Below, piece by piece: positions 377 to 59,323 of a stretch of 64,000 bases of DNA (the first letter of the stretch is position 1; each line of letters opens with the position of its first letter). Made by a program: the position numbers and the translations under genes. The stretch is from Chloropicon primus. Taxonomy: Eukaryota > Chlorophyta > Chloropicophyceae > Chloropicales > Chloropicaceae. Under the pieces are notes generated by a model. The model did no database searches and was not told where the DNA came from. It saw only the letters and a list, made by a program, of their open reading frames with translations. The DNA is taken from contig CP060756.1 in assembly GCA_023205875.1 (NCBI GenBank), forward strand, positions 1,364,001 to 1,428,000, read 5' to 3'.

Positions 377-3300
377 CTGCTTCGGACCAAGCAAGGTCTC
401 TGCGTATTCAATGATAGCATGAACGCTTGGATAGTCAAAGATCAGCATCCCAGGCAAATCAATACCAAGGCTTTGCTCAAGAGATGAACGCAACTCCATC
501 GCACCAAGGGAATCAAGACCTGCAGCCATCAATGGATCGTCTGGGCTCACCTCATGACCCACGACAGCATGCACAGCTTCCTTGACCTTCTGCTGTAATA
601 CGTCCGCATCCAAAGTCATGCCGGATGCAGCGCTGGCAGATGTGTTGGACATTCTTGTGGCATCGATAGAAGAACCGTGACCATGAGATGCAGTGTCATG
701 CATATTTGAGAATAGTGGAGGAACATGTGTCATGCGAGAGAGGAATCTATCCCACATGAAGCGCTGAACAGCAACTTGGGCGTGAGATGACCACATCGCA
801 TTGTCCAAGCAACCACCACCACCACAAACACGACCTGCAATACTCTGCAAGGCGAACAATCCTTCATACGGAGACAACATGTAAAGACCCATCTGCTCCA
901 TGCGCTTGGCATGCTTGACTGCCATGCCACCAGATGCCCAAGGACCCCACTGGACACTCACAGCACTCACGCCTGCATTCTGCCACATGTGAGCTTGGGC
1001 ATCCAATACAGCATTGGCTGCAGCGTAATTCGTTTGTCCAGCTGATCCAAGCAAAGCAGCAACAGAAGAGAAGAGAACTTGAGCACCCATGGCTTCCATT
1101 GCAAATGTCTTCGCCAGCTGATGCAAGCCCACAACCTTGGGAGCAAATACTTGCTTCACAGATTGTGCTGTCTGGTTGCTGAGCACAGAATCAGCAAGGA
1201 CTCCGCCAGCATGCATCACACCTTGTACGCCAAGACCTCCAAGCAAGTGACAATCTTCAGCACAGGACACATCGCAATGCAGTATTTGCACCTCCGCACC
1301 GCAACTGTGACCACACAAACCCTTGCTCATGGACTTGATGTGACCAGTGCGACCCAACATCAACACGCAATCGATTCCGTGTTGAGTGAGATGCTGTCCT
1401 GTCAGCAGTCCAAGAGCACCAGTGCCTCCCGTCACAACCCATGATCCTGCCACGGAAGACAGTGACTGAGAAGAATGAGGGAAACATGGAACCATAGCTG
1501 CAGTCTCCACCATGCTCTGATCCACATATACACACCAGCCTCCGCCATTGTGAATCTCACTTAGAGGCAAACAAGACTCATCAACCTTATTGCTTGTGTC
1601 ATGAGATCCAAAGTGCAGTGAAGTGGATTGTACGCCACTCAGAGCACAAGCTCGTAGAATGCCGTATATCATAGCATTTCCCTGGTCCCCGACAAAAGGT
1701 GCAGGAACACCACAAGAGGTGGATGTGGTTGATTTGGAAACCAACTTGAGGTCGCAAGAGCTCATTTGGTTGTATTTGTCCTGAAGGACAGCAATTGTAC
1801 TCAGGGATAATGCCACAAGGGACGCAGGGTGATCGAGCAAGCACGATTTCTGCTCAACAAAAGAGTCAGCGTCTCCTCCGCTCCATACGTGGCATGAAGA
1901 TGCACTCATGTCATCCAAGACTTGCGCAGAAGAGATCACAGGGCACACAGATTGCCATGACAACGTGTACTGCACTTGCTCGGAGAGGTCCGCGGAGCTT
2001 CTCATACGGCTCAGCGGCACCGACAAGTCTTTCCTATGTAGAGTACCATTCAACTCCACCGCACCGAATCTTGACATCTCCGTACGACTGGACTTGCCAC
2101 GGTTGGCCAAGCATAGCCAATCCCCGGCACTGGAATACGAAGATGTTCCCATCCTCATAGCATCTGCGCCACAAGCAAGTCCACTGAGATGACTCCATTC
2201 ACCAAGTCCCAAACACATTGCGAGATGAACAGGGTTCACCACGTATCCGTCTTCTGAGGAAACCATCTCGTTGATGTTTGGCAACATGTATCCCAAATAG
2301 GTTGCGGAAGGACTGGCATTGCTGAGATCAGTATCAAAGACCCTCGTGTGCTTTTGCACATCGTCTTCACTGTGATGATTTGTTGAGGGTGCCCACTGAG
2401 TTGTGCCTGCTAGACACGTTTTAGACTGAGAGGAACCTCCGCAGACTACACTAATCTCATTCTTCCTCTGCACTAGGACGTTCACAGTTTGCGACGTTGA
2501 ATCATCCAGTACAATTGGTGCGGGCATGGTGAGATTGCGCATCACATATGAATCGGTCTTTTCATTCTTGCCGCCAGATCTTAGAACGTCAATCGTACCG
2601 GCACACATCTCAATCAGGGATCCCATACCTGCAATGGGTCTGCCGTTGAATAAGTGTTGCCAAATGAAAGCATGCTGTACTCTATTCAGCATACCCTCGA
2701 GGCTAATATCTCCACCCTGCGCAAAGGCAACACGTGACAAGAGTTTTGGGAGTTTGCACACATACCAACAACGCTCACGTTGCCACAGCATGACCAAACC
2801 TGGACGAGATACAGTATCAATATTTCCAACAGATCCACTGCAATGGGATAACAGTGCATGGGCATTGGTGCCCTGGAAAGCGAAGCCGCTCACACCTCCA
2901 ACACTTGCATCTCCACATGCCAATGAGCTTGATTGACGACTCAGATCAACAGCAAGACTATTGTTCTTGTCAGAGCCACTACCAAGCATACTCAGTATGT
3001 GATGATTCAGATGTCTCAAGTGACTGATGGCACTAGCTGATTTGTGCATCAGATTGCCTGCGAGCTGAACCATACCAGCCATACCAGCTGCTGCTTCACT
3101 ATGCCCCATATTGCTCTTCACTCCAGACATGTGGACAGGGAAGTCCCGTTTGGTGGCCTCGGAGAGTAACACAGCAGATGCCGCACCGACCTCAATGGGG
3201 TCACCAAGAGGAGTACCTGTACCGTGCATCTGCAAGACCTGTACATTCCAGGCATCAAGGTCTGCCGAGTGCAAGCTCATACGCATCACTTGCTGTTGAG

Positions 3301-6300
3301 AGGGTCCGTGCGGTGCGGTCAAAGCACTGGATCGCCCATCTTGGTTCACAGCAGTGCCACGTAGCATCACCGTATCTTGTTTGGAACCATCTTCAAGAGG
3401 ACCAAGAACGCAAGCGATGCAAGCTTCAGCACGCACGTAACCGTCTGCTGATGCATCCAAGGTCTTGCAACGCCCATCAGGCGCAAGCATGCCTGCTCTC
3501 TGGACAGAACCAAATGTGTCTCGCATGACCATCACTTCACAACCACACGCCAGTCCCTTCGAGACGTCGCCAAGAACAAGGCCCATGTAGGACATGTGTG
3601 CTGCGACAAGAGAGGATGAACAAGCCGTATCAACAGCTGCACAAGCTCCTTGCAAACCATATGTGAAGGACAGTCGCCCTGCAGAAACACTCAAAGAACC
3701 TGACGTAACCGCATGAGCCTCAGACTTATGGCCATAACCAGCATAGATATTGCTGTACTCCGCATGAGAGATTCCTAAAAACACATTGGTTTTGCTCCCA
3801 TAAACCTTTCCAACTAAACTCAGACATTCATACGATACCTCGAGAAGAAGACGTTGGTGAGGATCCATCCAACACGCCTCAGAGCGAGATACGCCAAAAC
3901 ATGGTATATCGAAGAGCTCTATGCCGTCAAGGAAACCACCAAAACGGATTGGCACAATGGGCGCACCATCCTTGTAATCCTCATCAGCGTCCCAGCGCAT
4001 GTGTGGAACCCTCCAAATACTGTCCCCAGCATTGGAAGTCTGGCAAAGATTGTGTTCAGGAGTGGGTAACCGTGCCGCAAGACTCAACATATGAACACTC
4101 ACAGATCCTTCAGAGACTGTCCGAATGCCTGTCGATATTGCAGCAGAAGCCAAAGGCACCTGCTTCGGACCAAGCAAGGTCTCTGCGTATTCAATGATAG
4201 CATGAACGCTTGGATAGTCAAAGATCAGCATCCCAGGCAAATCAATACCAAGGCTCTGCTCAAGAGATGAACGCAACTCCATCGCACCAAGGGAATCAAG
4301 ACCTGCAGCCATCAATGGATCGTCTGGGCTCACCTCATGACCCACGACAGCATGCACAGCTTCCTTGACCTTCTGCTGTAATACGTCCGCATCCAAAGTC
4401 ATGCCGGATGCAGCGCTGGCAGATGTGTTGGACATTCTTGTGGCATCGATAGAAGAACCGTGACCATGAGATGCAGTGTCATGCATATTTGAGAATAGTG
4501 GAGGAACATGTGTCATGCGAGAGAGGAATCTATCCCACATGAAGCGCTGAACAGCAACTTGGGCGTGAGATGACCACATCGCATTGTCCAAGCAACCACC
4601 ACCACCACAAACACGACCTGCAATACTCTGCAAGGCGAACAATCCTTCATACGGAGACAACATGTAAAGACCCATCTGCTCCATGCGCTTGGCATGCTTG
4701 ACTGCCATGCCACCAGATGCCCAAGGACCCCACTGGACACTCACAGCACTCACGCCTGCATTCTGCCACATGTGAGCTTGGGCATCCAATACAGCATTGG
4801 CTGCAGCGTAATTGGTTTGTCCAGCTGATCCAAGCAAAGCAGCAACAGAAGAGAAGAGAACTTGAGCACCCATGGCTTCCATTGCAAATGTCTTCGCCAG
4901 CTGATGCAAGCCCACAACCTTGGGAGCAAATACTTGCTTCACAGATTGTGCTGTCTGGTTGCTGAGCACAGAATCAGCAAGGACTCCGCCAGCATGCATC
5001 ACACCTTGTACGCCAAGACCTCCAAGCAAGTGACAATCTTCAGCACAGGACACATCGCAATGCAGTATTTGCACCTCCGCACCGCAACTGTGACCACACA
5101 AACCCTTGCTCATGGACTTGATGTGACCAGTGCGACCCAACATCAACACGCAATCGATTCCGCGTTGAGTGAGATGCTGTCCTGTCAGCAGTCCAAGAGC
5201 ACCAGTGCCTCCCGTCACAACCCAGTGAGAACTTGATGTGTCAAGGATAGGAGCAAAGGACTCATTGGAGACGATGACTTTACCAATGTGAGCAGCTCTT
5301 GACATTTGCCGCAAAGCTGAAGACACGTGATTCATTCCATGAACGGTTGATGCTAAAGGCCTCGCAGTGCCAAGAGCCAAAGCATGAGACAAATCGGTCA
5401 TGACCTTCCGCACATGTGAAGGTGGTAAGAAATCCAACGCCACCAAGTTGTACGTAAGATCTGGTCTCTCCATCTTCATGGATCTTGTACTCCAAATGTC
5501 TCGCTTGCCAAGCTCCACAAATCTACCTCCGGTGCGAACACAACTTAACGAAGAGGCAATCATTCCAGAGGAAGTCAGAGAATTGATGATCAGGTCAACA
5601 CCCGAGTGGAATGCTGCACTAAATGCAGTCGACCGAGTGCTGCAAACACTCTGTACTCCAAGCGACCTGACATAACCTCTTTTAGCAACATTGCCTGCCG
5701 TGCTCCAAACATTTGCACCCAAGGCATTGCTCACGTTAATTGCTGCGGTTCCAATACCGCCAGAACCTGCGTGAACCAAGATTGTATCACTGACACTAGC
5801 ACCACAGGCCTGCTTCAAAGCAAGCCATACTGTCATGTAAACAGATGGAGTTGAAGCAGCAAGCTCAAAAGATACACCCTTACTAAGGAGGGAGACTACA
5901 GAGAATGGAACATCCACTGTTGTTGCAAAGGAACCTGATGCCAGGGCAAGGACAGCATCACCGACGAGTAGCTCTGTACCGTCGTTGGTCGAAGTACAGC
6001 ATGAATGTACCACACCGGAGCAGTCTGCTCCTGGCGGTCCAGGATCGCCAGGGTATGCACCGAGCACATTCAACACATCACGGAAATTGATTCCAACGCT
6101 GTGAACGAGAATAGAAAGAAATCCTTCCTTCTGTACTGTATCTTCACGTGCGAACTCAACAACCATATTGCTCAAGGAACCCCTTGGGTGTGGTTTGATT
6201 TGATACCTTGCACGGGTCATTGGCAGTTCTGGAACATTGAGAAGTCTTGCGTCATAGTACGCGCCTCCTTTCAAGACATTCCCGCTGTGCTTGCTGGCCA

Positions 6301-9300
6301 TGTCTGCCTCAGTTTTAGCATCCCACGTACTGAAGTGACATGGAACAGATCCCTTCTGTGTCTCTGAGGCAGCACAAGTGTCTCTGACGGACAAGAAGAC
6401 TGATCCGCTGGCAACAACACTCTTCACGATACCCCAAAGAAGTGATGCTTGCAATTGAGAATTTCCAACAACATCGGCTCCGACTGACACTCCTCCCCGA
6501 GAAGAAAAGGACATACTCTGGGACCTGATTTGTGACATGACTTGAACAGCGCCAATAGCTTCTGTACACAATCTTGCCTCATGAAGGGTTCCCTTGGAGC
6601 AGTGCTCTTGGAATGCAAACTGATTGTGACATCCAAAAGTGCTTGACGCTGATAAACCGCTGGTTTGAACTTGCCATTGAAGTCTATACTGAACGGAGTC
6701 TGGCATAAATCGCACAGCCTTCTTTTGGTCAGACGCGTTGGCCTTCAAGCTCTTTGCAATCAGTCCATTTATGCAAAGATCGAAGTTGTGAGAGGTACCT
6801 GAGACCCTGTAGTGTGTTTCTTTCTGTGTGGCCGTGCTAGAAGCAGAATCATAGACTGACAAGGCATGGTAGCTATAGCCACGCATGCATCCGCTGCCAT
6901 GCAAAGCATGGAAGCCAGCGGGAACAAAAGTCGACGATTCTCCATCATTTTGACCAGCGGAGGATACTACGGAGCACATTCCTCTTGCTGCGCCAACCTG
7001 GAGTGAGGCATCGAGCACAGCGGGACATAACTTGAAACCCCTATCTTCAGTAGGGAGAACGTTTTCAACATTACCCACTGCAATGTCAAACTGGGGTTGA
7101 TGGACCTCATTGGATCCAAGCCAAACACTTGACAGCAATGCAAAAGAAGGACCATATTGGAGGCCATGAGCAGCAAAGAAGGGATAAAGATAAGCTCCGT
7201 TCACAAGGGTACGGCTCTTTGATCTGACTACTTCTCTTGAGAAGCCTGTCCTCTCAATGTCACCATTCACCATTTTGTCTTTCGCCTGTTGCATCTGCAC
7301 TTTTCCATGGACATGCAATCTCTTTTGTGATCTGCCTGTGTTCTCCGATGAGAGTGTTAGGCCACCTGTATCCAATTGCAACTCAGCAGTACAATACAAA
7401 CTATTGACCATGTTCTCACCAAGATCCTCCAGAGAAAGAGGCGAAGCAATCACAGAGTCGCACATAGAATATTCACATGCAAGGCCAGAATCTCTCAAAG
7501 CAGAGGCGATCGAACTGTAACCAAGTTCCATGAAGGCGGCGCCTGGCAACAACGCTTGTCCAGAGATGACATGATCCCACAGATAAGCCATTGCCGGATG
7601 ATACATCTTGCAAGTAAAAATGCATGAATTTGGAAGGACACGTGCTGGTGCGCAACTCACCATCAAATCAAAGTCAACAGTGTACCAACAACGCTCACGT
7701 TGCCACAGCATGACCAAACCTGGACGAGATACAGTATCAATATTTCCAACAGATCCACTGCAATGAGATAACAGTGCATGGGCATTGGTGCCCTGGAAAG
7801 CGAAGCCGCTCACACCTCCAACACTTGCATCTCCACATGCCAATGAGCTTGATTGACGACTCAGATCAACAGCAAGACTATTGTTCTTGTCAGAGCCACT
7901 ACCAAGCATACTCAGTATGTGATGATTCAGATGTCTCAAGTGACTGATGGCACTAGCTGATTTGTGCATCAGATTGCCTGCGAGCTGAACCATACCAGCC
8001 ATACCAGCTGCTGCTTCACTATGCCCCATATTGCTCTTCACTCCAGACATGTGGACAGGGAAGTCCCGTTTGGTGGCCTCGGAGAGTAACACAGCAGATG
8101 CCGCACCGACCTCAATGGGGTCACCAAGAGGAGTACCTGTACCGTGCATCTGCAAGACCTGTACATTCCAGGCATCAAGGTCTGCCGAGTGCAAGCTCAT
8201 ACGCATCACTTGCTGTTGAGAGGGTCCGTGCGGTGCGGTCAAAGCACTGGATCGCCCATCTTGGTTCACAGCAGTGCCACGTAGCATCACCGTATCTTGT
8301 TTGGAACCATCTTCAAGAGGACCAAGAACGCAAGCGATGCAAGCTTCAGCACGCACGTAACCGTCTGCTGATGCATCTAAGGTCTTGCAACGCCCATCAG
8401 GCGCAAGCATGCCTGCTCTCTGAATAGAACCAAATGTGTCTCTACTGATTTGAAGGTCAACACCGCACACAAGACCCTTCGAGAGTTGACCTAGAACAAG
8501 GCCCATGTAGGACATGTGTGCTGCGACAAGAGAGGATGAACAAGCCGTATCAACAGCTGCACAAGCTCCTTGCAAACCATATGTGAAGGACAGTCGCCCT
8601 GCAGAAACACTCAAAGAACCTGACGTAACCGCATGAACCTCAGACTTATGGCCATAACCAGCATAGATATTGCTGTATTCAACATGCTGAGTACCCACCA
8701 TCACACCCATCCTCTGTTTCTGATGCATCCAACTCGAGGAAGAATCGGATTCCATGCTGTGCAGAGCTTCATACGATACCTCGAGAAGAAGACGTTGGTG
8801 AGGATCCATCCAACACGCCTCAGAGCGAGATACGCCAAAACATGGTATATCGAAGAGCCCTATGCCGTCAAGGAAACCACCAAAACGGATTGGCACAATG
8901 GGCGCACCATCCTTGTAATCCTCATCAGCGTCCCAGCGCATGTGTGGAACCCTCCAAATACTGTCCCCAGCATTGGAAGTCTGGCAAAGATTGTGTTCAG
9001 GAGTGGGTAACCGTGCCGCAAGACTCAACATATGAACACTCACAGATCCTTCAGAGACTGTCCGAATGCCTGTCGATATTGCAGCAGAAGCCAAAGGCAC
9101 CTGCTTCGGACCAAGCAAGGTCTCTGCGTATTCAATGATAGCATGAACGCTTGGATAGTCAAAGATCAGCATCCCAGGCAAATCAATACCAAGGCTCTGC
9201 TCAAGAGATGAACGCAACTCCATCGCACCAAGGGAATCAAGACCTGCAGCCATCAATGGATCGTCTGGGCTCACCTCATGACCCACGACAGCATGCACAG

Positions 9301-12300
9301 CTTCCTTGACCTTCTGCTGTAATACGTCCGCATCCAAAGTCATGCCGGATGCAGCGCTGGCAGATGTGTTGGACATTCTTGTGGCATCGATAGAAGAACC
9401 GTGACCATGAGATGCAGTGTCATGCATATTTGAGAATAGTGGAGGAACATGTGTCATGCGAGAGAGGAATCTATCCCACATGAAGCGCTGAACAGCAACT
9501 TGGGCGTGAGATGACCACATCGCATTGTCCAAGCAACCACCACCACCACAAACACGACCTGCAATACTCTCCAAGGCGAACAATCCTTCATACGGAGACA
9601 ACATGTAAAGACCCATCTGCTCCATGCGCTTGGCATGCTTGACTGCCATGCCACCAGATGCCCAAGGACCCCACTGGACACTCACAGCACTCACGCCTGC
9701 ATTCTGCCACATGTGAGCTTGGGCATCCAATACAGCATTGGCTGCAGCGTAATTGGTTTGTCCAGCTGATCCAAGCAAAGCAGCAACAGAAGAGAAGAGA
9801 ACTTGAGCACCCATGGCTTCCATTGCAAATGTCTTCGCCAGCTGATGCAAGCCCACAACCTTGGGAGCAAATACTTGCTTCACAGATTGTGCTGTCTGGT
9901 TGCTGAGCACAGAATCAGCAAGGACTCCGCCAGCATGCATCACACCTTGTACGCCAAGACCTCCAAGCAAGTGACAATCTTCAGCACAGGACACATCGCA
10001 ATGCAGTATTTGCACCTCCGCACCGCAACTGTGACCACACAAACCCTTGCTCATGGACTTGATGTGACCAGTGCGACCCAACATCAACACGCAATCGATT
10101 CCGTGTTGAGTGAGATGCTGTCCTGTCAGCAGTCCAAGAGCACCAGTGCCTCCCGTCACAACCCATGATCCTGCCACGGAAGACAGTGACTGAGAAGAAT
10201 GAGGGAAACATGGAACCATAGCTGCAGTCTCCACCATGCTCTGATCCACATATACACACCAGCCTCCGCCATTGTGAATCTCACTTAGAGGCAAACAAGA
10301 CTCATCAACCTTATTGCTTGTGTCATGAGATCCAAAGTGCAGTGAAGTGGATTGTACACCATTCAGAGCACAAGCTCGTAGAATGCCGTATATCATAGCA
10401 TTTCCCTGGTCCCCGACAAAAGGTGCAGGAACACCACAAGAGGTGGATGTGGTTGATTTGGAAACCAACTTGAGGTCGCAAGAGCTCATTTGGTTGTATT
10501 TGTCCTGAAGGACAGCAATTGTACTCAGGGATAATGCCACAAGGGACGCAGGGTGATCGAGCAAGCACGATTTCTGCTCAACAAAAGAGTCAGCGTCTCC
10601 TCCGCTCCATACGTGGCATGAAGATGCACTCATGTCATCCAAGACTTGCGCAGAAGAGATCACAGGGCACACAGATTGCCATGACAACGTGTACTGCACT
10701 TGCTCGGAGAGGTCCGCGGAGCTTCTCATACGGCTCAGCGGCACCGACAAGTCTTTCCTATGTAGAGTACCATTCAACTCCACCGCACCGAATCTTGACA
10801 TCTCCGTACGACTGGACTTGCCACGGTTGGCCAAGCATAGCCAATCCCCGGCACTGGAATACGAAGATGTTCCCATCCTCATAGCATCTGCGCCACAAGC
10901 AAGTCCACTGAGATGACTCCATTCACCAAGTCCCAAACACATTGCGAGATGAACAGGGTTCACCACGTATCCGTCTTCTGAGGAAACCATCTCGTTGATG
11001 TTTGGCAACATGTATCCCAAATAGGTTGCGGAAGGACTGGCATTGCTGAGATCAGTATCAAAGACCCTCGTGTGCTTTTGCACATCGTCTTCACTGTGAT
11101 GATTTGTTGAGGGTGCCCACTGAGTTGTGCCTGCTAGACACGTTTTAGACTGAGAGGAACCTCCGCAGACTACACTAATCTCATTCTTCCTCTGCACTAG
11201 GACGTTCACAGTTTGCGACGTTGAATCATCCAGTACAATTGGTGCGGGCATGGTGAGATTGCGCATCACATATGAATCGGTCTTTTCATTCTTGCCGCCA
11301 GATCTTAGAACGTCAATCGTACCGGCACACATCTCAATCAGGGATCCCATACCTGCGATGGGTCTGCCGTTGAATAAGTGTTGCCAAATGAAAGCATGCT
11401 GTACTCTATTCAGCATACCCTCGAGGCTAATATCTCCACCCTGCGCAAAGGCAACACGTGACAAGAGTTTTGGGAGTTTGCACACATACCAACAACGCTC
11501 ACGTTGCCACAGCATGACCAAACCTGGACGAGATACAGTATCAATATTTCCAACAGATCCACTGCAATGAGATAACAGTGCATGGGCATTGGTGCCCTGG
11601 AAAGCGAAGCCGCTCACACCTCCAACACTTGCATCTCCACATGCCAATGAGCTTGATTGACGACTCAGATCAACAGCAAGACTATTGTTCTTGTCAGAGC
11701 CACTACCAAGCATACTCAGTATGTGATGATTCAGATGTCTCAAGTGACTGATGGCACTAGCTGATTTGTGCATCAGATTGCCTGCGAGCTGAACCATACC
11801 AGCCATACCAGCTGCTGCTTCACTATGCCCCATATTGCTCTTCACTCCAGACATGTGGACAGGGAAGTCCCGTTTGGTGGCCTCGGAGAGTAACACAGCA
11901 GATGCCGCACCGACCTCAATGGGGTCACCAAGAGGAGTACCTGTACCGTGCATCTGCAAGACCTGTACATTCCAGGCATCAAGGTCTGCCGAGTGCAAGC
12001 ACATACGCATCACTTGCTGTTGAGAGGGTCCGTGCGGTGCGGTCAAAGCACTGGATCGCCCATCTTGGTTCACAGCAGTGCCACGTAGCATCACCGTATC
12101 TTGTTTGGAACCATCTTCAAGAGGACCGAGAACGCAAGCGATGCAAGCTTCAGCACGCACGTAACCGTCTGCTGATGCATCCAAGGTCTTGCAACGCCCA
12201 TCAGGCGCAAGCATGCCTGCTCTCTGGACAGAACCAAATGTGTCTCGCATGACCATCACTTCACAACCACACGCCAGTCCCTTCGAGACGTCGCCAAGAA

Positions 12301-15300
12301 CAAGGCCCATGTAGGACATGTGTGCTGCGACAAGAGAGGATGAACAAGCCGTATCAACAGCTGCACAAGCTCCTTGCAAACCATATGTGAAGGACAGTCG
12401 CCCTGCAGAAACACTCAAAGAACCTGACGTAACCGCATGAGCCTCAGACTTATGGCCATAACCAGCATAGATATTGCTGTACTCCGCATGAGAGATTCCT
12501 AAAAACACATTGGTTTTGCTCCCATAAACCTTTCCAACTAAACTCAGACATTCATACGATACCTCGAGAAGAAGACGTTGGTGAGGATCCATCCAACACG
12601 CCTCAGAGCGAGATACGCCAAAACATGGTATATCGAAGAGCTCTATGCCGTCAAGGAAACCACCAAAACGGATTGGCACAATGGGCGCACCATCCTTGTA
12701 ATCCTCATCAGCGTCCCAGCGCATGTGTGGAACCCTCCAAATACTGTCCCCAGCATTGGAAGTCTGGCAAAGATTGTGTTCAGGAGTGGGTAACCGTGCC
12801 GCAAGACTCAACATATGAACACTCACAGATCCTTCAGAGACTGTCCGAATGCCTGTCGATATTGCAGCAGAAGCCAAAGGCACCTGCTTCGGACCAAGCA
12901 AGGTCTCTGCGTATTCAATGATAGCATGAACGCTTGGATAGTCAAAGATCAGCATCCCAGGCAAATCAATACCAAGGCTCTGCTCAAGAGATGAACGCAA
13001 CTCCATCGCACCAAGGGAATCAAGACCTGCAGCCATCAATGGATCGTCTGGGCTCACCTCATGACCCACGACAGCATGCACAGCTTCCTTGACCTTCTGC
13101 TGTAATACGTCCGCATCCAAAGTCATGCCGGATGCAGCGCTGGCAGATGTGTTGGACATTCTTGTGGCATCGATAGAAGAACCGTGACCATGAGATGCAG
13201 TGTCATGCATATTTGAGAATAGTGGAGGAACATGTGTCATGCGAGAGAGGAATCTATCCCACATGAAGCGCTGAACAGCAACTTGGGCGTGAGATGACCA
13301 CATCGCATTGTCCAAGCAACCACCACCACCACAAACACGACCTGCAATACTCTCCAAGGCGAACAATCCTTCATACGGAGACAACATGTAAAGACCCATC
13401 TGCTCCATGCGCTTGGCATGCTTGACTGCCATGCCACCAGATGCCCAAGGACCCCACTGGACACTCACAGCACTCACGCCTGCATTCTGCCACATGTGAG
13501 CTTGGGCATCCAATACAGCATTGGCTGCAGCGTAATTGGTTTGTCCAGCTGATCCAAGCAAAGCAGCAACAGAAGAGAAGAGAACTTGAGCACCCATGGC
13601 TTCCATTGCAAATGTCTTCGCCAGCTGATGCAAGCCCACAACCTTGGGAGCAAATACTTGCTTCACAGATTGTGCTGTCTGGTTGCTGAGCACAGAATCA
13701 GCAAGGACTCCGCCAGCATGCATCACACCTTGTACGCCAAGACCTCCAAGCAAGTGACAATCTTCAGCACAGGACACATCGCAATGCAGTATTTGCACCT
13801 CCGCACCGCAACTGTGACCACACAAACCCTTGCTCATGGACTTGATGTGACCAGTGCGACCCAACATCAACACGCAATCGATTCCGCGTTGAGTGAGATG
13901 CTGTCCTGTCAGCAGTCCAAGAGCACCAGTGCCTCCCGTCACAACCCAGTGAGAACTTGATGTGTCAAGGATAGGAGCAAAGGACTCATTGGAGACGATG
14001 ACTTTACCAATGTGAGCAGCTCTTGACATTTGCCGCAAAGCTGAAGACACGTGATTCATTCCATGAACGGTTGATGCTAAAGGCCTCGCAGTGCCAAGAG
14101 CCAAAGCATGAGACAAATCGGTCATGACCTTCCGCACATGTGAAGGTGGTAAGAAATCCAACGCCACCAAGTTGTACGTAAGATCTGGTCTCTCCATCTT
14201 CATGGATCTTGTACTCCAAATGTCTCGCTTGCCAAGCTCCACAAATCTACCTCCGGTGCGAACACAACTTAACGAAGAGGCAATCATTCCAGAGGAAGTC
14301 AGAGAATTGATGATCAGGTCAACACCCGAGTGGAATGCTGCACTAAATGCAGTCGACCGAGTGCTGCAAACACTCTGTACTCCAAGCGACCTGACATAAC
14401 CTCTTTTAGCAACATTGCCTGCCGTGCTCCAAACATTTGCACCCAAGGCATTGCTCACGTTAATTGCTGCGGTTCCAATACCGCCAGAACCTGCGTGAAC
14501 CAAGATTGTATCACTGACACTAGCACCACAGGCCTGCTTCAAAGCAAGCCATACTGTCATGTAAACAGATGGAGTTGAAGCAGCAAGCTCAAAAGATACA
14601 CCCTTACTAAGGAGGGAGACTACAGAGAATGGAACATCCACTGTTGTTGCAAAGGAACCTGATGCCAGGGCAAGGACAGCATCACCGACGAGTAGCTCTG
14701 TACCGTCGTTGGTCGAAGTACAGCATGAATGTACCACACCGGAGCAGTCTGCTCCTGGCGGTCCAGGATCGCCAGGGTATGCACCGAGCACATTCAACAC
14801 ATCACGGAAATTGATTCCAACGCTGTGAACGAGAATAGAAAGAAATCCTTCCTTCTGTACTGTATCTTCACGTGCGAACTCAACAACCATATTGCTCAAG
14901 GAACCCCTTGGGTGTGGTTTGATTTGATACCTTGCACGGGTCATTGGCAGTTCTGGAACATTGAGAAGTCTTGCGTCATAGTACGCGCCTCCTTTCAAGA
15001 CATTCCCGCTGTGCTTGCTGGCCATGTCTGCCTCAGTTTTAGCATCCCACGTACTGAAGTGACATGGAACAGATCCCTTCTGTGTCTCTGAGGCAGCACA
15101 AGTGTCTCTGACGGACAAGAAGACTGATCCGCTGGCAACAACACTCTTCACGATACCCCAAAGAAGTGATGCTTGCAATTGAGAATTTCCAACAACATCG
15201 GCTCCGACTGACACTCCTCCCCGAGAAGAAAAGGACATACTCTGGGACCTGATTTGTGACATGACTTGAACAGCGCCAATAGCTTCTGTACACAATCTTG

Positions 15301-18300
15301 CCTCATGAAGGGTTCCCTTGGAGCAGTGCTCTTGGAATGCAAACTGATTGTGACATCCAAAAGTGCTTGACGCTGATAAACCGCTGGTTTGAACTTGCCA
15401 TTGAAGTCTATACTGAACGGAGTCTGGCATAAATCGCACAGCCTTCTTTTGGTCAGACGCGTTGGCCTTCAAGCTCTTTGCAATCAGTCCATTTATGCAA
15501 AGATCGAAGTTGTGAGAGGTACCTGAGACCCTGTAGTGTGTTTCTTTCTGTGTGGCCGTGCTAGAAGCAGAATCATAGACTGACAAGGCATGGTAGCTAT
15601 AGTCACGCATGCATCCGCTGCCATGCAAAGCATGGAAGCCAGCGGGAACAAAAGTCGACGATTCTCCATCATTTTGACCAGCGGAGGATACTACGGAGCA
15701 CATTCCTCTTGCTGCGCCAACCTGGAGTGAGGCATCGAGCACAGCGGGACATAACTTGAAACCCCTATCTTCAGTAGGGAGAACGTTTTCAACATTACCC
15801 ACTGCAATGTCAAACTGGGGTTGATGGACCTCATTGGATCCAAGCCAAACACTTGACAGCAATGCAAAAGAAGGACCATATTGGAGGCCATGAGCAGCAA
15901 AGAAGGGATAAAGATAAGCTCCGTTCACAAGGGTACGGCTCTTTGATCTGACTACTTCTCTTGAGAAGCCTGTCCTCTCAATGTCACCATTCACCCTTTT
16001 GTCTTTCGCCTGTTGCATCTGCACTTTTCCATGGACATGCAATCTCTTTTGTGATCTGCCTGTGTTCTCCGATGAGAGTGTTAGGCCACCTGTATCCAAT
16101 TGCAACTCAGCAGTACAATACAAACTATTGACCATGTTCTCACCAAGATCCTCCAGAGAAAGAGGCGAAGCAATCACAGAGTCGCACATAGAATATTCAC
16201 ATGCAAGGCCAGAATCTCTCAAAGCAGAGGCGATCGAACTGTAACCAAGTTCCATGAAGGCGGCGCCTGGCAACAACGCTTGTCCAGAGATGACATGATC
16301 CCACAGATAAGCCATTGCCGGATGATACATCTTGCAAGTAAAAATGCATGAATTTGGAAGGACACGTGCTGGTGCGCAACTCACCATCAAATCAAAGTCA
16401 ACAGTGTACCAACAACGCTCACGTTGCCACAGCATGACCAAACCTGGACGAGATACAGTATCAATATTTCCAACAGATCCACTGCAATGAGATAACAGTG
16501 CATGGGCATTGGTGCCCTGGAAAGCGAAGCCGCTCACACCTCCAACACTTGCATCTCCACATGCCAATGAGCTTGATTGACGACTCAGATCAACAGCAAG
16601 ACTATTGTTCTTGTCAGAGCCACTACCAAGCATACTCAGTATGTGATGATTCAGATGTCTCAAGTGACTGATGGCACTAGCTGATTTGTGCATCAGATTG
16701 CCTGCGAGCTGAACCATACCAGCCATACCAGCTGCTGCTTCACTATGCCCCATATTGCTCTTCACTCCAGACATGTGGACAGGGAAGTCCCGTTTGGTGG
16801 CCTCGGAGAGTAACACAGCAGATGCTGCACCGACCTCAATGGGGTCACCAAGAGGAGTACCTGTACCGTGCATCTGCAAGACCTGTACATTCCAGGCATC
16901 AAGGTCTGCCGAGTGCAAGCTCATACGCATCACTTGCTGTTGAGAGGGTCCGTGCGGTGCGGTCAAAGCACTGGATCGCCCATCTTGGTTCACAGCAGTG
17001 CCACGTAGCATCACCGTATCTTGTTTGGAACCATCTTCAAGAGGACCGAGAACGCAAGCGATGCAAGCTTCAGCACGCACGTAACCGTCTGCTGATGCAT
17101 CCAAGGTCTTGCAACGCCCATCAGGCGCAAGCATGCCTGCTCTCTGGATAGAATGAAACGTCGACCTCATGATAAGGATTTCATTACCGCACACAAGACC
17201 CTTCGAGAGTTGACCTAGAACAAGGCCCATGTAGGACATGTGTGCTGCGACAAGAGAGGATGAACAAGCCGTATCAACAGCTGCACAAGCTCCTTGCAAA
17301 CCATATGTGAAGGACAGTCGCCCTGCAGAAACACATAAAGAACCTGACGTAACCGCATTGCCGTCGTTCTTATGACCCAAACTTCCATAAACATAGGAAT
17401 ATTCAAGATGCTGAGTACCCACCATCACACCCATCCTCTGTTTCTGATGCATCCAACTCGAGGAAGAATCGGATTCCATGCTGTGCAGAGCTTCATACGA
17501 TACCTCGAGAAGAAGACGTTGGTGAGGATCCATCCAACACGCCTCAGAGCGAGATACGCCAAAACATGGTATATCGAAGAGCCCTATGCCGTCAAGGAAA
17601 CCACCAAAACGGATTGGCACAATGGGCGCACCATCCTTGTAATCCTCATCAGCGTCCCAGCGCATGTGTGGAACCCTCCAAATACTGTCCCCAGCATTGG
17701 AAGTCTGGCAAAGATTGTGTTCAGGAGTGGGTAACCGTGCCGCAAGACTCAACATATGAACACTCACAGATCCTTCAGAGACTGTCCGAATGCCTGTCGA
17801 TATTGCAGCAGAAGCCAAAGGCACCTGCTTCGGACCAAGCAAGGTCTCTGCGTATTCAATGATAGCATGAACGCTTGGATAGTCAAAGATCAGCATCCCA
17901 GGCAAATCAATACCAAGGCTCTGCTCAAGAGATGAACGCAATTCCATCGCACCAAGGGAATCAAGACCTGCAGCCATCAATGGTTCATCGGGATTCGTAT
18001 CATGACCCACGACAGCATGCACAGCTTCCTTGACCTTCTGCTGTAATACGTCCGCATCCATGCCAGAGGTTCCAGAGCTTTGTCTTGGCTCAATAAAACT
18101 CTCTGCGTATTCAATGATAGCATGAACGCTTGGATAGTCAAAGATCAGCATCCCAGGCAAATCAATACCAAGGCTCTGCTCAAGAGATGAACGCAACTCC
18201 ATCGCACCAAGGGAATCAAGACCTGCAGCCATCAATGGATCGTCTGGGCTCACCTCATGACCCACGACAGCATGCACAGCATCCTTGACCTTCTGCTGTA

Positions 18301-21300
18301 ATACGTCCGCATCCAAAGTCATGCCGGATGCAGCGCTGGCAGATGTGTTGGACATTCTTGTGGCATCGATAGAAGAACCGTGACCATGAGATGCAGTGTC
18401 ATGCATATTTGAGAATAGTGGAGGAACATGTGTCATGCGAGAGAGGAATCTATCCCACATGAAGCGCTGAACAGCAACTTGGGCGTGAGATGACCACATC
18501 GCATTGTCCAAGCAACCACCACCACCACAAACACGACCTGCAATACTCTGCAAGGCGAACAATCCTTCATACGGAGACAACATGTAAAGACCCATCTGCT
18601 CCATGCGCTTGGCATGCTTGACTGCCATGCCACCAGATGCCCAAGGACCCCACTGGACACTCACAGCACTCACGCCTGCATTCTGCCACATGTGAGCTTG
18701 GGCATCCAATACAGCATTGGCTGCAGCGTAATTGGTTTGTCCAGCTGATCCAAGCAAAGCAGCAACAGAAGAGAAGAGAACTTGAGCACCCATGGCTTCC
18801 ATTGCAAATGTCTTCGCCAGCTGATGCAAGCCCACAACCTTGGGAGCAAATACTTGCTTCACAGATTGTGCTGTCTGGTTGCTGAGCACAGAATCAGCAA
18901 GGACTCCGCCAGCATGCATCACACCTTGTACGCCAAGACCTCCAAGCAAGTGACAATCTTCAGCACAGGACACATCGCAATGCAGTATTTGCACCTCCGC
19001 ACCGCAACTGTGACCACACAAACCCTTGCTCATGGACTTGATGTGACCAGTGCGACCCAACATCAACACGCAATCGATTCCGTGTTGAGTGAGATGCTGT
19101 CCTGTCAGCAGTCCAAGAGCACCAGTGCCTCCCGTCACAACCCATGATCCTGCCACGGAAGACAGTGACTGAGAAGAATGAGGGAAACATGGAACCATAG
19201 CTGCAGTCTCCACCATGCTCTGATCCACATATACACACCAGCCTCCGCCATTGTGAATCTCACTTAGAGGCAAACAAGACTCATCAACCTTATTGCTTGT
19301 GTCATGAGATCCAAAGTGCAGTGAAGTGGATTGTACACCATTCAGAGCACAAGCTCGTAGAATGCCGTATATCATAGCATTTCCCTGGTCCCCGACAAAA
19401 GGTGCAGGAACACCACAAGAGGTGGATGTGGTCGATTTGGAAACCAACTTGAGGTCGCAAGAGCTCATTTGGTTGTATTTGTCCTGAAGGACAGCAATTG
19501 TACTCAGGGATAATGCCACAAGGGACGCAGGGTGATCGAGCAAGCACGATTTCTGCTCAACAAAAGAGTCAGCGTCTCCTCCGCTCCATACGTGGCATGA
19601 AGATGCACTCATGTCATCCAAGACTTGCGCAGAAGAGATCACAGGGCACACAGATTGCCATGACAACGTGTACTGCACTTGCTCGGAGAGGTCCGCGGAG
19701 CTTCTCATACGGCTCAGCGGCACCGACAAGTCTTTCCTATGTAGAGTACCATTCAACTCCACCGCACCGAATCTTGACATCTCCGTACGACTGGACTTGC
19801 CACGGTTGGCCAAGCATAGCCAATCCCCGGCACTGGAATACGAAGATGTTCCCATCCTCATAGCATCTGCGCCACAAGCAAGTCCACTGAGATGACTCCA
19901 TTCACCAAGTCCCAAACACATTGCGAGATGAACAGGGTTCACCACGTATCCGTCTTCTGAGGAAACCATCTCGTTGATGTTTGGCAACATGTATCCCAAA
20001 TAGGTTGCGGAAGGACTGGCATTGCTGAGATCAGTATCAAAGACCCTCGTGTGCTTTTGCACATCGTCTTCACTGTGATGATTTGTTGAGGGTGCCCACT
20101 GAGTTGTGCCTGCTAGACACGTTTTAGACTGAGAGGAACCTCCGCAGACTACACTAATCTCATTCTTCCTCTGCACTAGGACGTTCACAGTTTGCGACGT
20201 TGAATCATCCAGTACAATTGGTGCGGGCATGGTGAGATTGCGCATCACATATGAATCGGTCTTTTCATTCTTGCCGCCAGATCTTAGAACGTCAATCGTA
20301 CCGGCACACATCTCAATCAGGGATCCCATACCTGCGATGGGTCTGCCGTTGAATAAGTGTTGCCAAATGAAAGCATGCTGTACTCTATTCAGCATACCCT
20401 CGAGGCTAATATCTCCACCCTGCGCAAAGGCAACACGTGACAAGAGTTTTGGGAGTTTGCACACATACCAACAACGCTCACGTTGCCACAGCATGACCAA
20501 ACCTGGACGAGATACAGTATCAATATTTCCAACAGATCCACTGCAATGGGATAACAGTGCATGGGCATTGGTGCCCTGGAACGCAAATGCCCCAACTTCA
20601 CCGATGCACACATCTCCACATGCCAATGAGCTTGATTGACGACTCAGATCAACAGCGCCACCAACCATGCTCAGTATGTGATGATTCAGATGTCTCAAGT
20701 GACTGATGGCACTAGCTGATTTGTGCATCAGATTGCCTGCGAGCTGAACCATACCAGCCATACCAGCAGCACATTCAGTATGTCCAATGTTGCTCTTCAC
20801 TCCAGACATGTGGACAGGGAAGTCCCGTTTGGTGGCCTCGGAGAGTAACACAGCAGATGCTGCACCGACCTCAATGGGGTCACCAAGAGGAGTACCTGTA
20901 CCGTGCATCTGCAAGACCTGTACATTCCAGGCATCAAGGTCTGCCGAGTGCAAGCTCATACGCATCACTTGCTGTTGAGAGGGTCCGTGCGGTGCGGTCA
21001 AAGCACTGGATCGCCCATCTTGGTTCACAGCAGTGCCACGTAGCATCACCGTATCTTGTTTGGAACCATCTTCAAGAGGACCAAGAACGCAAGCGATGCA
21101 AGCTTCAGCACGCACGTAACCGTCTGCTGATGCATCCAAGGTCTTGCAACGCCCATCAGGCGCAAGCATGCCTGCTCTTTGGATGCATTCAAACGTCTTG
21201 CGTCTTACGTGGATGTCAATTCCACACACAAGACCAGAAGATAGTTCTCCTGCACGCAAACCCATAAACGACACGTGCATAGCAACTAAAGATGCTGAGC

Positions 21301-23359
21301 AAGCCGTATCAACAGCTGCACAAGCTCCTTGCAAACCATATGTGAAGGACAGTCGCCCTGCAGAAACGCTAAGAGATGCTGAAGTAACTGCATACGATTC
21401 CATCTTCAAGCCCTGATATGACATTTCATTGGAAAACTCAATGTGTTGAATGCCAACCATCACACCCATCCTCTGTTTCTGATGCATCCAACTCGAGGAA
21501 GAATCGGATTCCATGCTGTGCAGAGCTTCATACGATACCTCGAGAAGAAGACGTTGGTGAGGATCCATCCAACACGCCTCAGAGCGAGATACGCCAAAAC
21601 ATGGTATATCGAAGAGCTCTATGCCGTCAAGGAAACCACCAAAACGGATTGGCACAATGGGCGCACCATCCTTGTAATCCTCATCAGCGTCCCAGCGCAT
21701 GTGTGGAACCCTCCAAATACTGTCCCCAGCATTGGAAGTCTGGCAAAGATTGTGTTCAGGAGTGGGTAACCGTGCCGCAAGACTCAACATATGAACACTC
21801 ACAGATCCTTCAGAGACTGTCCGAATGCCTGTCGATATTGCAGCAGAAGCCAAAGGCACCTGCTTCGGACCAAGCAAGGTCTCTGCGTATTCAATGATAG
21901 CATGAACGCTTGGATAGTCAAAGATCAGCATCCCAGGCAAATCAATACCAAGGCTCTGCTCAAGAGATGAACGCAATTCCATCGCACCAAGGGAATCAAG
22001 ACCTGCAGCCATCAATGGTTCATCGGGATTCGTATCATGACCCACGACAGCATGCACAGCTTCCTTGACCTTCTGCTGTAATACGTCCGCATCCATGCCA
22101 GAGGTTCCAGAGCTTTGTCTTGGCTCAATAAAACTCTCTGCGTATTCAATGATAGCATGAACGCTTGGATAGTCAAAGATCAGCATCCCAGGCAAATCAA
22201 TACCAAGGCTCTGCTCAAGAGATGAACGCAACTCCATCGCACCAAGGGAATCAAGACCTGCAGCCATCAATGGATCGTCTGGGCTCACCTCATGACCCAC
22301 GACAGCATGCACAGCATCCTTGACCTTCTGCTGTAATACGTCCGCATCCAAAGTCATGCCGGATGCAGCGCTGGCAGATGTGTTGGACATTCTTGTGGCA
22401 TCGATAGAAGAACCGTGACCATGAGATGCAGTGTCATGCATATTTGAGAATAGTGGAGGAACATGTGTCATGCGAGAGAGGAATCTATCCCACATGAAGC
22501 GCTGAACAGCAACTTGGGCGTGAGATGACCACATCGCATTGTCCAAGCAACCACCACCACCACAAACACGACCTGCAATACTCTCCAAGGCGAACAATCC
22601 TTCATACGGAGACAACATGTAAAGACCCAACTGCTCCATGCGCTTGGCATGCTTGACTGCCATGCCACCAGATGCCCAAGGACCCCACTGGACACTCACA
22701 GCACTCACGCCTGCATTCTGCCACATGTGAGCTTGGGCATCCAATACAGCATTGGCTGCAGCGTAATTGGTTTGTCCAGCTGATCCAAGCAAAGCAGCAA
22801 CAGAAGAGAAGAGAACTTGAGCACCCATGGCTTCCATTGCAAATGTCTTCGCCAGCTGATGCAAGCCCACAACCTTGGGAGCAAATACTTGCTTCACAGA
22901 TTGTGCTGTCTGGTTGCTGAGCACAGAATCAGCAAGGACTCCGCCAGCATGCATCACACCTTGTACGCCAAGACCTCCAAGCAAGTGACAATCTTCAGCA
23001 CAGGACACATCGCAATGCAGTATTTGCACCTCCGCACCGCAACTGTGACCACACAAACCCTTGCTCATGGACTTGATGTGACCAGTGCGACCCAACATCA
23101 ACACGCAATCGATTCCATGTTGAGTGAGATGCTGTCCTGTCAGCAGTCCAAGAGCACCAGTGCCTCCCGTCACAACCCATGATCCTGCCACGGAAGACAG
23201 TGACTGAGAAGAATGAGGGAAACATGGAACCATAGCTGCAGTCTCCACCATGCTCTGATCCACATATACACACCAGCCTCCGCCATTGTGAATCTCACTT
23301 AGAGGCAAACAAGACTCATCAACCTTATTGCTTGTGTCATGAGATCCAAAGTGCAGTGA
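1..23359 (-). CDS. Giant modular type I polyketide synthase, continuation (rest of module 2 to start of module 8; runs off the left edge)
   Basis: From 23359 down to position 1 one minus-strand frame carries the remainder of module 2, complete modules 3 to 7 and the N-terminal part of KS8. I found no sign of a stop in that frame, about 7,780 codons. Joined to the preceding part the protein would exceed 10,700 residues and continue past the window. Short modules (KS-DH-like-KR-ACP, 3,783 bp; 4,035 bp with two ACPs) alternate partly with long ones (KS-DH-ER-KR-ACP, 4,941 bp). The KRs keep the Ser/Tyr/Asn set (SAGQTNYAAAN). Reduction differs by module, so an alternating hydroxyl/methylene chain is expected; the actual product cannot be read from the sequence. 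If the frame break at 23360 is real, this part would need its own start or splicing. Confidence 0.88.
377..4159 (-). other. PKS module 7: KS - DH-like - KR - ACP
   Basis: 3,783 bp copy of module 5. KS7 is at about 4060-2845 (DTACSSS near 3625, HGTGT near 3220). The DH-like His motif is near 2650, GGTGALG near 1425, KR catalytic YAAAN near 1020, and ACP GLDSL near 515. Confidence 0.87.
4160..9100 (-). other. PKS module 6: KS - DH - ER - KR - ACP (fully reducing)
   Basis: 4,941 bp copy of module 4. KS6 is at about 9000-7750. The DH has its His motif near 7565 and Asp motif near 7015. The ER is at about 6190-5245 with its NADPH motif near 5760. KR GGTGALG is near 5210 and the ACP at 4400-4160. 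It differs from module 4 mainly in the KS variable patches. Confidence 0.88.
9101..12883 (-). other. PKS module 5: KS - DH-like - KR - ACP
   Basis: 3,783 bp. KS5 (about 12785-11565) has an altered N-terminal patch, in which SYECLSLVGKVYGSKTNVF replaces the longer sequence of KS4 and KS6. The DH-like His motif is near 11376, GGTGALG near 10150, and there is a single ACP. Nearly identical to module 7. Confidence 0.87.
12884..17824 (-). other. PKS module 4: KS - DH - ER - KR - ACP (fully reducing)
   Basis: 4,941 bp. KS4 is at about 17725-16470. The DH has HVISGQALLPG near 16290 and the catalytic Asp motif PAVLDASLQ near 15740. The ER (about 14915-13970) has the entry motif NFRDVLNVLG and NADPH motif HAGSGGIG near 14485. 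KR GGTGALG is near 13935, and a single ACP follows. All reductive steps look intact, so the two added carbons should leave as a saturated unit. Confidence 0.88.
17825..21859 (-). other. PKS module 3: KS - DH-like - KR - ACP - ACP
   Basis: 4,035 bp, the same architecture as module 2, including the 255-bp second ACP (pair at about 18345-18085 and 18065-17825) joined by a linker that reads EPRQSSGTSG. KS3 lies at about 21770-20560 with DTACSAS, and the DH-like His motif is near 20355. KR GGTGALG is near 19130. Confidence 0.87.
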
Positions 23360-25895
23360 GAGTGGATTGTACACCATTCAGAGCACAAGCTCGTAGAATG
23401 CCGTATATCATAGCATTTCCCTGGTCCCCGACAAAAGGTGCAGGAACACCACAAGAGGTGGATGTGGTCGATTTGGAAACCAACTTGAGGTCGCAAGAGC
23501 TCATTTGGTTGTATTTGTCCTGAAGGACAGCAATTGTACTCAGGGATAATGCCACAAGGGACGCAGGGTGATCGAGCAAGCACGATTTCTGCTCAACAAA
23601 AGAGTCAGCGTCTCCTCCGCTCCATACGTGGCATGAAGATGCACTCATGTCATCCAAGACTTGCGCAGAAGAGATCACAGGGCACACAGATTGCCATGAC
23701 AACGTGTACTGCACTTGCTCGGAGAGGTCCGCGGAGCTTCTCATACGGCTCAGCGGCACCGACAAGTCTTTCCTATGTAGAGTACCATTCAACTCCACCG
23801 CACCGAATCTTGACATCTCCGTACGACTGGACTTGCCACGGTTGGCCAAGCATAGCCAATCCCCGGCACTGGAATACGAAGATGTTCCCATCCTCATAGC
23901 ATCTGCGCCACAAGCAAGTCCACTGAGATGACTCCATTCACCAAGTCCCAAACACATTGCGAGATGAACAGGGTTCACCACGTATCCGTCTTCTGAGGAA
24001 ACCATCTCGTTGATGTTTGGCAACATGTATCCCAAATAGGTTGCGGAAGGACTGGCATTGCTGAGATCAGTATCAAAGACCCTCGTGTGCTTTTGCACAT
24101 CGTCTTCACTGTGATGATTTGTTGAGGGTGCCCACTGAGTTGTGCCTGCTAGACACGTTTTAGACTGAGAGGAACCTCCGCAGACTACACTAATCTCATT
24201 CTTCCTCTGCACTAGGACGTTCACAGTTTGCGACGTTGAATCATCCAGTACAATTGGTGCGGGCATGGTGAGATTGCGCATCACATATGAATCGGTCTTT
24301 TCATTCTTGCCGCCAGATCTTAGAACGTCAATCGTACCGGCACACATCTCAATCAGGGATCCCATACCTGCGATGGGTCTGCCGTTGAATAAGTGTTGCC
24401 AAATGAAAGCATGCTGTACTCTATTCAGCATACCCTCGAGGCTAATATCTCCACCCTGCGCAAAGGCAACACGTGACAAGAGTTTTGGGAGTTTGCACAC
24501 ATACCAACAACGCTCACGTTGCCACAGCATGACCAAACCTGGACGAGATACAGTATCAATATTTCCAACAGATCCACTGCAATGGGATAACAGTGCATGG
24601 GCATTGGTGCCCTGGAACGCAAATGCCCCAACTTCGCCGATGCACACATCTCCACATGCCAATGAGCTTGATTGACGACTCAGATCAACAGCGCCACCAA
24701 CCATGCTCAGTATGTGATGATTCAGATGTCTCAAGTGACTGATGGCACTAGCTGATTTGTGCATCAGATTGCCTGCGAGCTGAACCATACCAGCCATACC
24801 AGCAGCACATTCAGTATGTCCAATGTTGCTCTTCACTCCAGACATGTGGACAGGGAAGTCCCGTTTGGTGGCCTCGGAGAGTAACACAGCAGATGCCGCA
24901 CCGACCTCAATGGGGTCACCAAGAGGAGTACCTGTACCGTGCATCTGCAAGACCTGTACATTCCAGGCATCAAGGTCTGCCGAGTGCAAGCTCATACGCA
25001 TCACTTGCTGTTGAGAGGGTCCGTGCGGTGCGGTCAAAGCACTGGATCGCCCATCTTGGTTCACAGCAGTGCCACGTAGCATCACCGTATCTTGTTTGGA
25101 ACCATCTTCAAGAGGACCAAGAACGCAAGCGATGCAAGCTTCAGCACGCACGTAACCGTCTGCTGATGCATCCAAGGTCTTGCAACGCCCATCAGGCGCA
25201 AGCATGCCTGCTCTTTGTATGATAGAAAATATGTTTTGACACACGTGCAAGTCAATTCCACAAACAAGACCAGAAGATAGCTCTCCTGCACGCAAACCCA
25301 TAAACGACAAGTGCATCGCAACTAAAGATGCTGAGCAAGCCGTATCAACAGCTGCACAAGCTCCTTGCAAACCATATGTGAAGGACAGTCGCCCTGCAGA
25401 AACACTCAAAGACCCCGCCGTGACTGAATACGTTTCCATTTTCAAGGAATGCAATCCCATTAAATCCCGGTATTCGAGATGCTGAGTACCCACCATCACA
25501 CCCATCCTCTGTTTCTGATGCATCCAACTCGAGGAAGAATCGGATTCCATGCTGTGCAGAGCTTCATACGATACCTCGAGAAGAAGACGTTGGTGAGGAT
25601 CCATCCAACACGCCTCAGAGCGAGATACGCCAAAACATGGTATATCGAAGAGCTCTATGCCGTCAAGGAAACCACCAAAACGGATTGGCACAATGGGCGC
25701 ACCATCCTTGTAATCCTCATCAGCGTCCCAGCGCATGTGTGGAACCCTCCAAACACTGTCCCCAGCATTGGAAGTCTGGCAAAGATTGTGTTCAGGAGTG
25801 GGTAACCGTGCCGCAAGACTCAACATATGAACACTCACAGATCCTTCAGAGACTGTCCGAATGCCTGTCGATATTGCAGCAGAAGCCAAAGGCAC
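21860..25895 (-). other. PKS module 2: KS - DH-like - KR - ACP - ACP
   Basis: KS2 (about 25800-24595) has DTACSAS and an NIGHTECAAG histidine motif. The DH-like domain (His motif near 24390) keeps HxxxG but lacks the second catalytic Asp. The KR has GGTGALG at about 23155-23180. Tandem ACPs lie at about 22380-22120 and 22100-21860. This module contains the one-base frame disruption near 23360. Confidence 0.85.
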
Positions 25896-59322: not shown

Positions 59323-59323
59323 C

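Follow-up and report, generated by a model that had tools for sequence, protein, structure and literature searches.

Near-identical modules with ketosynthases that differ in five short blocks in a giant polyketide synthase gene of a green alga

How do the ketosynthase (KS) domains of a single polyketide synthase (PKS) gene come to differ sharply over a few short blocks when the rest of the domain, and of the module around it, is almost uniform? This question was raised by a 64,000-nucleotide stretch of Chloropicon primus DNA (contig CP060756.1; hereafter the window), in which a giant, multimodular PKS gene of the trans-acyltransferase (trans-AT) type from a green alga carries seven KSs (KS1-KS7) and part of an eighth (KS8) across two overlapping reading frames. 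A first-pass annotation had described KS2 to KS7 as almost identical apart from two patches flanking the active site, and had read the patches as specificity cassettes that line the acyl pocket, follow the type of the upstream module and are kept apart while the rest of the domain is homogenised.

KS2 to KS7 were aligned by codon (433 columns), and blocks were defined by the variation among these same KSs. Five resulted: P1 (columns 92-143), P2 (169-207), P3 (338-343), P4 (379-390) and P5 (405-412), together 117 columns. The alignment held 120 variable codons, which occupied 106 of the 117 block columns and 14 of the 316 outside, and the KS backbone was about 99% identical. The densest 39-codon stretch contained 38 variable codons, while the maximum over 5000 shuffles was 25. 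These results bear out the description of almost identical KSs interrupted by sharp patches; an even spread of variation, which the annotation had named as evidence against itself, was not seen. Both of its patches are real and correspond to P1, which begins well ahead of the GVMVG motif, and P2, but its count was too low, as three smaller blocks lie downstream. Of these, P3 reads IGHTEC or MGHSEA, P4 contains an 8-residue indel, and P5 immediately precedes FAFQGTNAH. The identity of the KS5 and KS7 patches also held, with 3 base differences over the whole KS and none in the blocks.

Silent sites were divided in the same way. The proportion of silent differences (pS) was 0.156-0.735 in the blocks and 0.004-0.045 outside, a difference of about 12- to 80-fold, in 14 of the 15 KS pairs, KS5-KS7 being the fifteenth. 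The high silent divergence of the blocks relative to the frame indicates that they are old alleles in a recently homogenised frame, not products of recent point mutation. Recent positive selection acting through point mutation was considered as a candidate and rejected, with pS exceeding its amino acid-changing counterpart (pN) over the pooled blocks in all 14 differing pairs.

The uniform frame extended beyond the KS. Comparison outside the KS covered 8 of the 15 module pairs, which differed by 1-10 bases. Modules 2, 3, 5 and 7 showed 3-10 base differences per pair in ~2490-2750 bases, besides the double acyl carrier protein (ACP) of modules 2 and 3; modules 2 and 3 themselves were 3 bases and one gap apart. 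Modules 4 and 6 showed 3 differences in 3631 aligned bases, and the ketoreductase (KR)-ACP part of modules 4 and 5 a single difference in the last 1125 bases of module 5.

As a control, we scored eight plasmid-borne bacterial PKS regions (L008-L015; 49 KSs and 141 within-locus pairs) at the same columns for P1 and P2 only; the figures refer to 57 of the 141 pairs, at most eight from each locus, namely those least diverged in the backbone. The ratio of block to backbone silent divergence was ~0.5-4.4 in these pairs, compared with 13-92 by the same score in seven of the eight window pairs listed, the eighth being KS5-KS7 with zero. At the protein level, variation was higher in the blocks than outside in 55 of the 57 control pairs. 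A mild form of the block effect is thus general, and the window stands at the extreme.

A further correction to the first-pass annotation is that P1 and P2 are themselves mosaic. In KS6, P1a matches the KS4 form except for one codon and P2a has the KS4 form, while P1b is the KS5/7 form with one base changed; P2b is a combination of its own that follows neither KS4 nor KS5/7 over its full length. Another mosaic was found in a solitary broken KS copy that spans approximately columns 71-377 (Table 1). Its P1a is KS6-like, with 89 of 90 bases the same and 10 gap positions besides; its P1b is identical to that of KS5/7 (66 of 66); and its P2a is of the KS5/7 form, with 65 of 66 bases shared and 6 gaps besides. 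It has lost columns 193 to ~230, and over its longer C-terminal stretch it is 96.5-98.4% identical to the modules. Between P1 and P2 lies a 75-base island in which 2 of 25 codons vary, each near an edge, despite the differing neighbours on both sides. This uniform island suggests that exchange tracts were short or that mismatches in the blocks were restored, and we estimate that P1 and P2 moved between KSs in pieces of ~50-150 bp. It is conceivable, though unlikely, that a small repertoire of DNA-diverged KS cassettes of that size is shuttled among modules by very short gene conversions that re-specify the frame stepwise, as in the cassette-pool diversification of variable genes, with dispersed KS fragments such as the broken copy as relics or donors.

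A module of the same kind was recovered from a second species. Contig JABSQW010000202.1 (3929 bases; hereafter L001) is filed under a Myxococcales bin, and its GC content of 0.494 deviates from the 0.625 and 0.673 of two other contigs of that bin (L003 and L005); for this reason we treated it as foreign to the bin. The module is alga-like, and the contig is likely a contamination. L003, a second PKS piece of the bin, scored far lower and entered the control as a lone KS without pairs. The L001 module showed KR and ACP by Pfam and no enoylreductase (ER) match, and its post-KS part was 68% identical to module 5. Its ends overlap exactly by 131 bases, inside the KS. We do not claim a tandem array of identical modules, as one module between two near-identical KSs yields the same contig. 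Two scans of viral contigs found no further relatives, and one genome scan gave L001 only.

Within-gene backbone identity exceeded between-species identity: the window KSs lie at a backbone dS (synonymous divergence) of 1.10-1.14 from L001, whereas KS2, KS3, KS4 and KS6 lie at 0.01-0.03 from KS5. In P1b, by contrast, L001 shares 21 of 22 residues with KS5/7, 20 with KS6, 12 with KS4, 10 with KS3 and 9 with KS2, and KS5 and L001 differ there by a dN (nonsynonymous divergence) of 0.02 and a dS of 0.89. At the columns from 1 to 315 where KS5 differs from KS2, KS3, KS4 and KS6, L001 carried the KS5 residue 36, 30, 28 and 19 times, the residue of the other KS 8, 6, 5 and 6 times, and neither 10, 11, 6 and 5 times, respectively; these columns are not independent, and p-values are a guide only. 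The KS5/7 allele appears to predate the species split, and the backbone to have been homogenised after it. Together with the silent contrast, this allele lends good support to the claim that the cassettes were kept apart while the rest was homogenised.

We next consider where the blocks lie in the domain. Literature cited by PMC number is represented here by excerpts, and statements about it are limited to these. PMC13347036 defines pocket A as residues 111-113 and pocket B as residues 128, 131 and 132, relative to Cys160; mapped by motif and distance, these correspond to columns 118-120 and to columns 135, 138 and 139. Among KS2-KS7, columns 118, 120 and 135 were variable, and 119, 138 and 139 were invariant. 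In order from KS2 to KS7, columns 118-120 read QHL, QHI, QHL, SHA, QHV and SHA, and column 135 reads T, S, G, A, V and A. P3 coincides with the KSNIGHT region, and P5 presumably lies at or beside gating loop 1, by an approximate mapping. The claim that the patches line the acyl pocket is partly supported: several blocks seem to contain or border on positions known from the acyl pocket and the active site, namely columns 118, 120 and 135 and P3, but the left part of P1a and P4 contain no named position.

From these observations we infer conversion, selection and a substrate function of the blocks, in the following way. Modules 2-7 share a frame, made up of KS backbone, KR and ACP, that recently became near-identical, presumably through short-tract gene conversion and/or module duplication. 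They differ in a few slots: the reductive loop (a dehydratase (DH)-ER pair or a probably inactive DH-like domain), the number of ACPs and the five KS blocks. The blocks escaped overwriting, most likely since each KS has to take a different incoming chain and converted versions are selected against. We put the probability of this reading, in which the frame was made uniform while old KS blocks were preserved by selection for differing incoming chains, at roughly 0.6.

Several observations weigh against it. The block pS among KS4, KS5 and KS6 (0.16-0.35) is below that between the window backbone and L001 (~0.58), and by this measure their block alleles may postdate the species split; only {KS2, KS3} versus {KS5, KS7} (pS ~0.73) look as old as the split or older. 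The cross-species sharing comes from one contig, in a bacterial bin, and concerns one allele. Just two of the 57 control pairs have a backbone pS below 0.1, with ratios of 4.4 (0.293/0.066) and 2.3 (0.152/0.067); as the block ratio is raised in the more homogenised of these two pairs as well, a continuum with the window at one end is possible. Finally, no pocket position given in the excerpts of PMC13347036 coincides with the left part of P1a or with P4, and the pocket placement was made by motif alignment (control KSs and the PMC13347036 numbering), as an AlphaFold2 model of KS5 built from 7 sequences reached a pLDDT of 29 and a pTM of 0.25 and was not used.

The first-pass annotation had proposed a more specific explanation, that the upstream module sets the block type through its reduction state (ER or no ER). 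Modules 4 and 6, upstream of KS5 and KS7, consist of KS, DH, ER, KR and ACP, the domains of module 6 being inferred from module 4; modules 2, 3, 5 and 7 consist of KS, DH-like, KR and ACP, with the ACP doubled in 2 and 3. The length of P1a matches this division in seven of seven cases. It is short in KS5 and KS7 and long after the non-ER modules, not only in KS4, KS6 and KS8, as had been stated for the KSs that follow short modules, but also in KS3 and in KS2, which follows module 1; KS8 could be typed for the first part of P1a only. The pocket-A residues agree in setting SHA in KS5/7 against the QH-type triplets of KS2, KS3, KS4 and KS6. However, KS5 and KS7 represent one allele and hence one observation, and because the split of 2/2 versus 5/5 includes this duplicated allele, the link of P1a to upstream reduction appears weak. 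The other blocks do not follow the rule. KS3 and KS4 differ in P1b-P5 although they follow the near-identical modules 2 and 3, P3-P5 separate {KS2, KS3} from {KS4-KS7} whatever the upstream type, KS6 has a KS5/7-type P1b, and P2 fits only as the allele shared by KS5 and KS7. Furthermore, the KS of L001 is of the KS5 form (SHA), although the module before it has KR and ACP and no ER match. By itself, reduction state does not account for the blocks, and we regard this version as unlikely; the full incoming chain, including its length and earlier groups, could explain them.

It is distinctly unlikely, in our assessment, that the blocks persist through a heterology barrier without any selection, being too diverged to pair for conversion and staying different passively while the backbone is evened out. 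Such a barrier would account for the sharp edges and the heavy silent divergence of the block DNA, and PMC4256081 lists reduced recombination between diverged sequences as an exit from concerted evolution. The mosaics argue otherwise: with 0-1 changes, P1b is common to KS5/7, KS6 and the broken copy, where the neighbouring P1a and P2 differ, and the blocks were therefore exchangeable. The nearly unchanged KS5/7 P1b protein in L001 points to constraint, and a purely passive process would be unlikely to leave several distinct blocks in or close to the active site.

A further alternative is that the blocks tune KS dimer contacts or ACP docking in place of the acyl chain. PMC4256081 reports that KS variation lies around both the substrate site and the dimer interface, and P1 contains a part of variable length, probably a surface loop. 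The ACPs are nearly identical among the compared modules, so docking partners hardly differ, and the variable columns include named pocket positions and the KSNIGHT region, which makes this alternative quite improbable. An assembly artefact, with repeats collapsed or over-polished and true differences left only where reads map uniquely, is very improbable: near-identical repeats are difficult to assemble and the frame break in the gene could be an error, but modules of two lengths and loop types follow one another in regular alternation, the independently assembled L001 ends in a KS overlap as near-identical modules predict, and, of the 14 variable backbone codons, 7 lie away from block edges.

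Comparison with known systems places the reading of selectively preserved blocks in context. In rapamycin-family bacterial PKSs, modules are homogenised within a cluster and KS variation lies mostly near the substrate site and the dimer interface (PMC4256081). There it is a trend among domains of related clusters; in the alga, unlike in that family, five blocks carry nearly all variation, silent included, and sub-block mosaics are present. In mycobacteria, the mycolactone PKS modules are near-identical, which has been credited to gene conversion; the KSs have 98.9-99.1% DNA identity over their full length with changes that do not follow substrate, whereas the KS blocks of the alga are strongly diverged, the two being compared by description (PMC2569948). 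Whole-length KS homogenisation of this kind was not found among KS2-KS7, where block pS reached 0.735 and KS5-KS7 alone were near-identical throughout. Green algae such as Ostreococcus and Micromonas have multimodular trans-AT PKSs with many modules, no AT domains and near-identical repeats; in the duplicated modules 1-3 of OluPKS3 the KSs are 98-100% conserved, and the excerpts of PMC4661987 do not describe variable KS blocks. GRINS likewise are long stretches of high-identity DNA inside a PKS gene that are thought to convert (PMC10394414). Regions of ~1 kb with >90% identity to another part of the same PKS are present in the window; as a candidate, GRINS were rejected on skew, as 0 of 640 300-bp windows reached the defining 25% in both GC and TA skew. 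Module homogenisation and pocket-centred KS variation are thus known already from bacteria. The sharpness and the mosaicism look new: a limited literature search, in the excerpts covered, found no account of protection this sharp by block with sub-block mosaics and a cross-species allele.

The coordinates of the gene and of the other features are given in Table 1. Pfam matches on the PKS comprised AMP-ligase, ACPs, ketosynthases, ketoreductases and DH-like domains, with DH and ER in module 4. The scan covered ORF (open reading frame) A, residues 1-2792 of ORF B and, in modules 4 and 5, the stretch after the KS, and none of its matches was to an acyltransferase family; modules 6 and 7, outside the scan, are near-identical to 4 and 5. 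The lack of an AT match in the scanned parts identifies the assembly line as trans-AT-type. The DH-like domain scored under the Pfam cut-off, and its module 5 copy has no counterpart of the aligned DH Asp that we take to be catalytic; for these reasons the short modules probably leave a beta-hydroxyl. Within module 2, which is one base longer than module 3, ORFs A and B share 41 bp (23337-23377) in different frames. The junction may be a real split or a frameshift, and could be a sequencing error.

Table 1. Positions of the PKS reading frames, KS cores with their blocks, post-KS module parts and other features in the window.
Feature	Position	Strand	Details
ORF A (2982 aa)	23337-32285	-	PKS first part: AMP-ligase ~30525-32027, ACPs, KS1, KR, ACP, KS2, DH-like
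ORF B (>=7791 aa)	2-23377	-	module 2 KR and ACPs, modules 3-7, KS8 start; runs past window edge
KS2 core	24561-25835	-	P1 25407-25562, P2 25215-25331, P3 24807-24824, P4 24690-24701, P5 24624-24647
KS3 core	20525-21799	-	P1 21371-21526, P2 21179-21295, P3 20771-20788, P4 20654-20665, P5 20588-20611
KS4 core	16466-17764	-	P1 17336-17491, P2 17144-17260, P3 16736-16753, P4 16595-16630, P5 16529-16552
KS5 core	11546-12823	-	short P1a; P1 12416-12550, P2 12224-12340, P3 11816-11833, P4 11675-11710, P5 11609-11632
KS6 core	7742-9040	-	mosaic; P1a 8678-8767, P1b 8612-8677, P2a 8465-8536, P2b 8420-8464
KS7 core	2822-4099	-	P1 3692-3826, P2 3500-3616, P3 3092-3109, P4 2951-2986, P5 2885-2908
KS8, N-terminal 104 residues	5-316	-	long P1a form; remainder beyond window
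Module 4, post-KS	12824-16465	-	upstream of KS5; DH ~15626-16354, ER ~13994-14842, KR, ACP
Module 5, post-KS	9041-11545	-	upstream of KS6; DH-like, KR, ACP
Module 6, post-KS	4100-7741	-	upstream of KS7; length as module 4, domains inferred from module 4
Broken KS copy, solitary	43356-44173	+	opposite to PKS
Plant-type SRP RNA (Plant_SRP)	39137-39434	+	full-length; 125 bits, threshold 105

The window is nuclear DNA; the full-length plant-type signal recognition particle (SRP) RNA places it in the green lineage, and we infer an alga. GC content per 4 kb was 48-51% in the PKS (1-32285) and 55-65% in the flank (32286-64000), which encodes a protein kinase, RecQ and a GT29 sialyltransferase. According to PMC6731263, Chloropicon primus averages 57.5% GC with lower values at PKS genes, and its PKS and sialyltransferase families are both large; the window resembles such loci in its 50% GC PKS within 55-65% GC DNA and in its GT29 gene. 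The repeated modules showed an excess of T over A on the coding strand (skew of at least 0.1 in 18 of 26 1-kb steps), which was mostly missing from the first 6 kb of ORF A. The flank also contains, at 39721-41817 (+), an ORF whose product has the N-terminal domain of a serine resolvase (Pfam E 1.6e-10) and which may stem from a mobile element, and, at 59236-59323 (+), a tRNA detected by Rfam and ARAGORN, which ARAGORN assigned to Cys with an unusual anticodon, ACA, that may be a mis-call.

How to change the substrate of one KS without breaking the remaining assembly line is an open engineering question. Five small KS blocks on a constant frame constitute a ready list of residues to test, and if it is true that the blocks alone set KS preference, natural exchange units would lie far below domain size. 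The gene also offers a clean case for how conversion and selection partition a protein.

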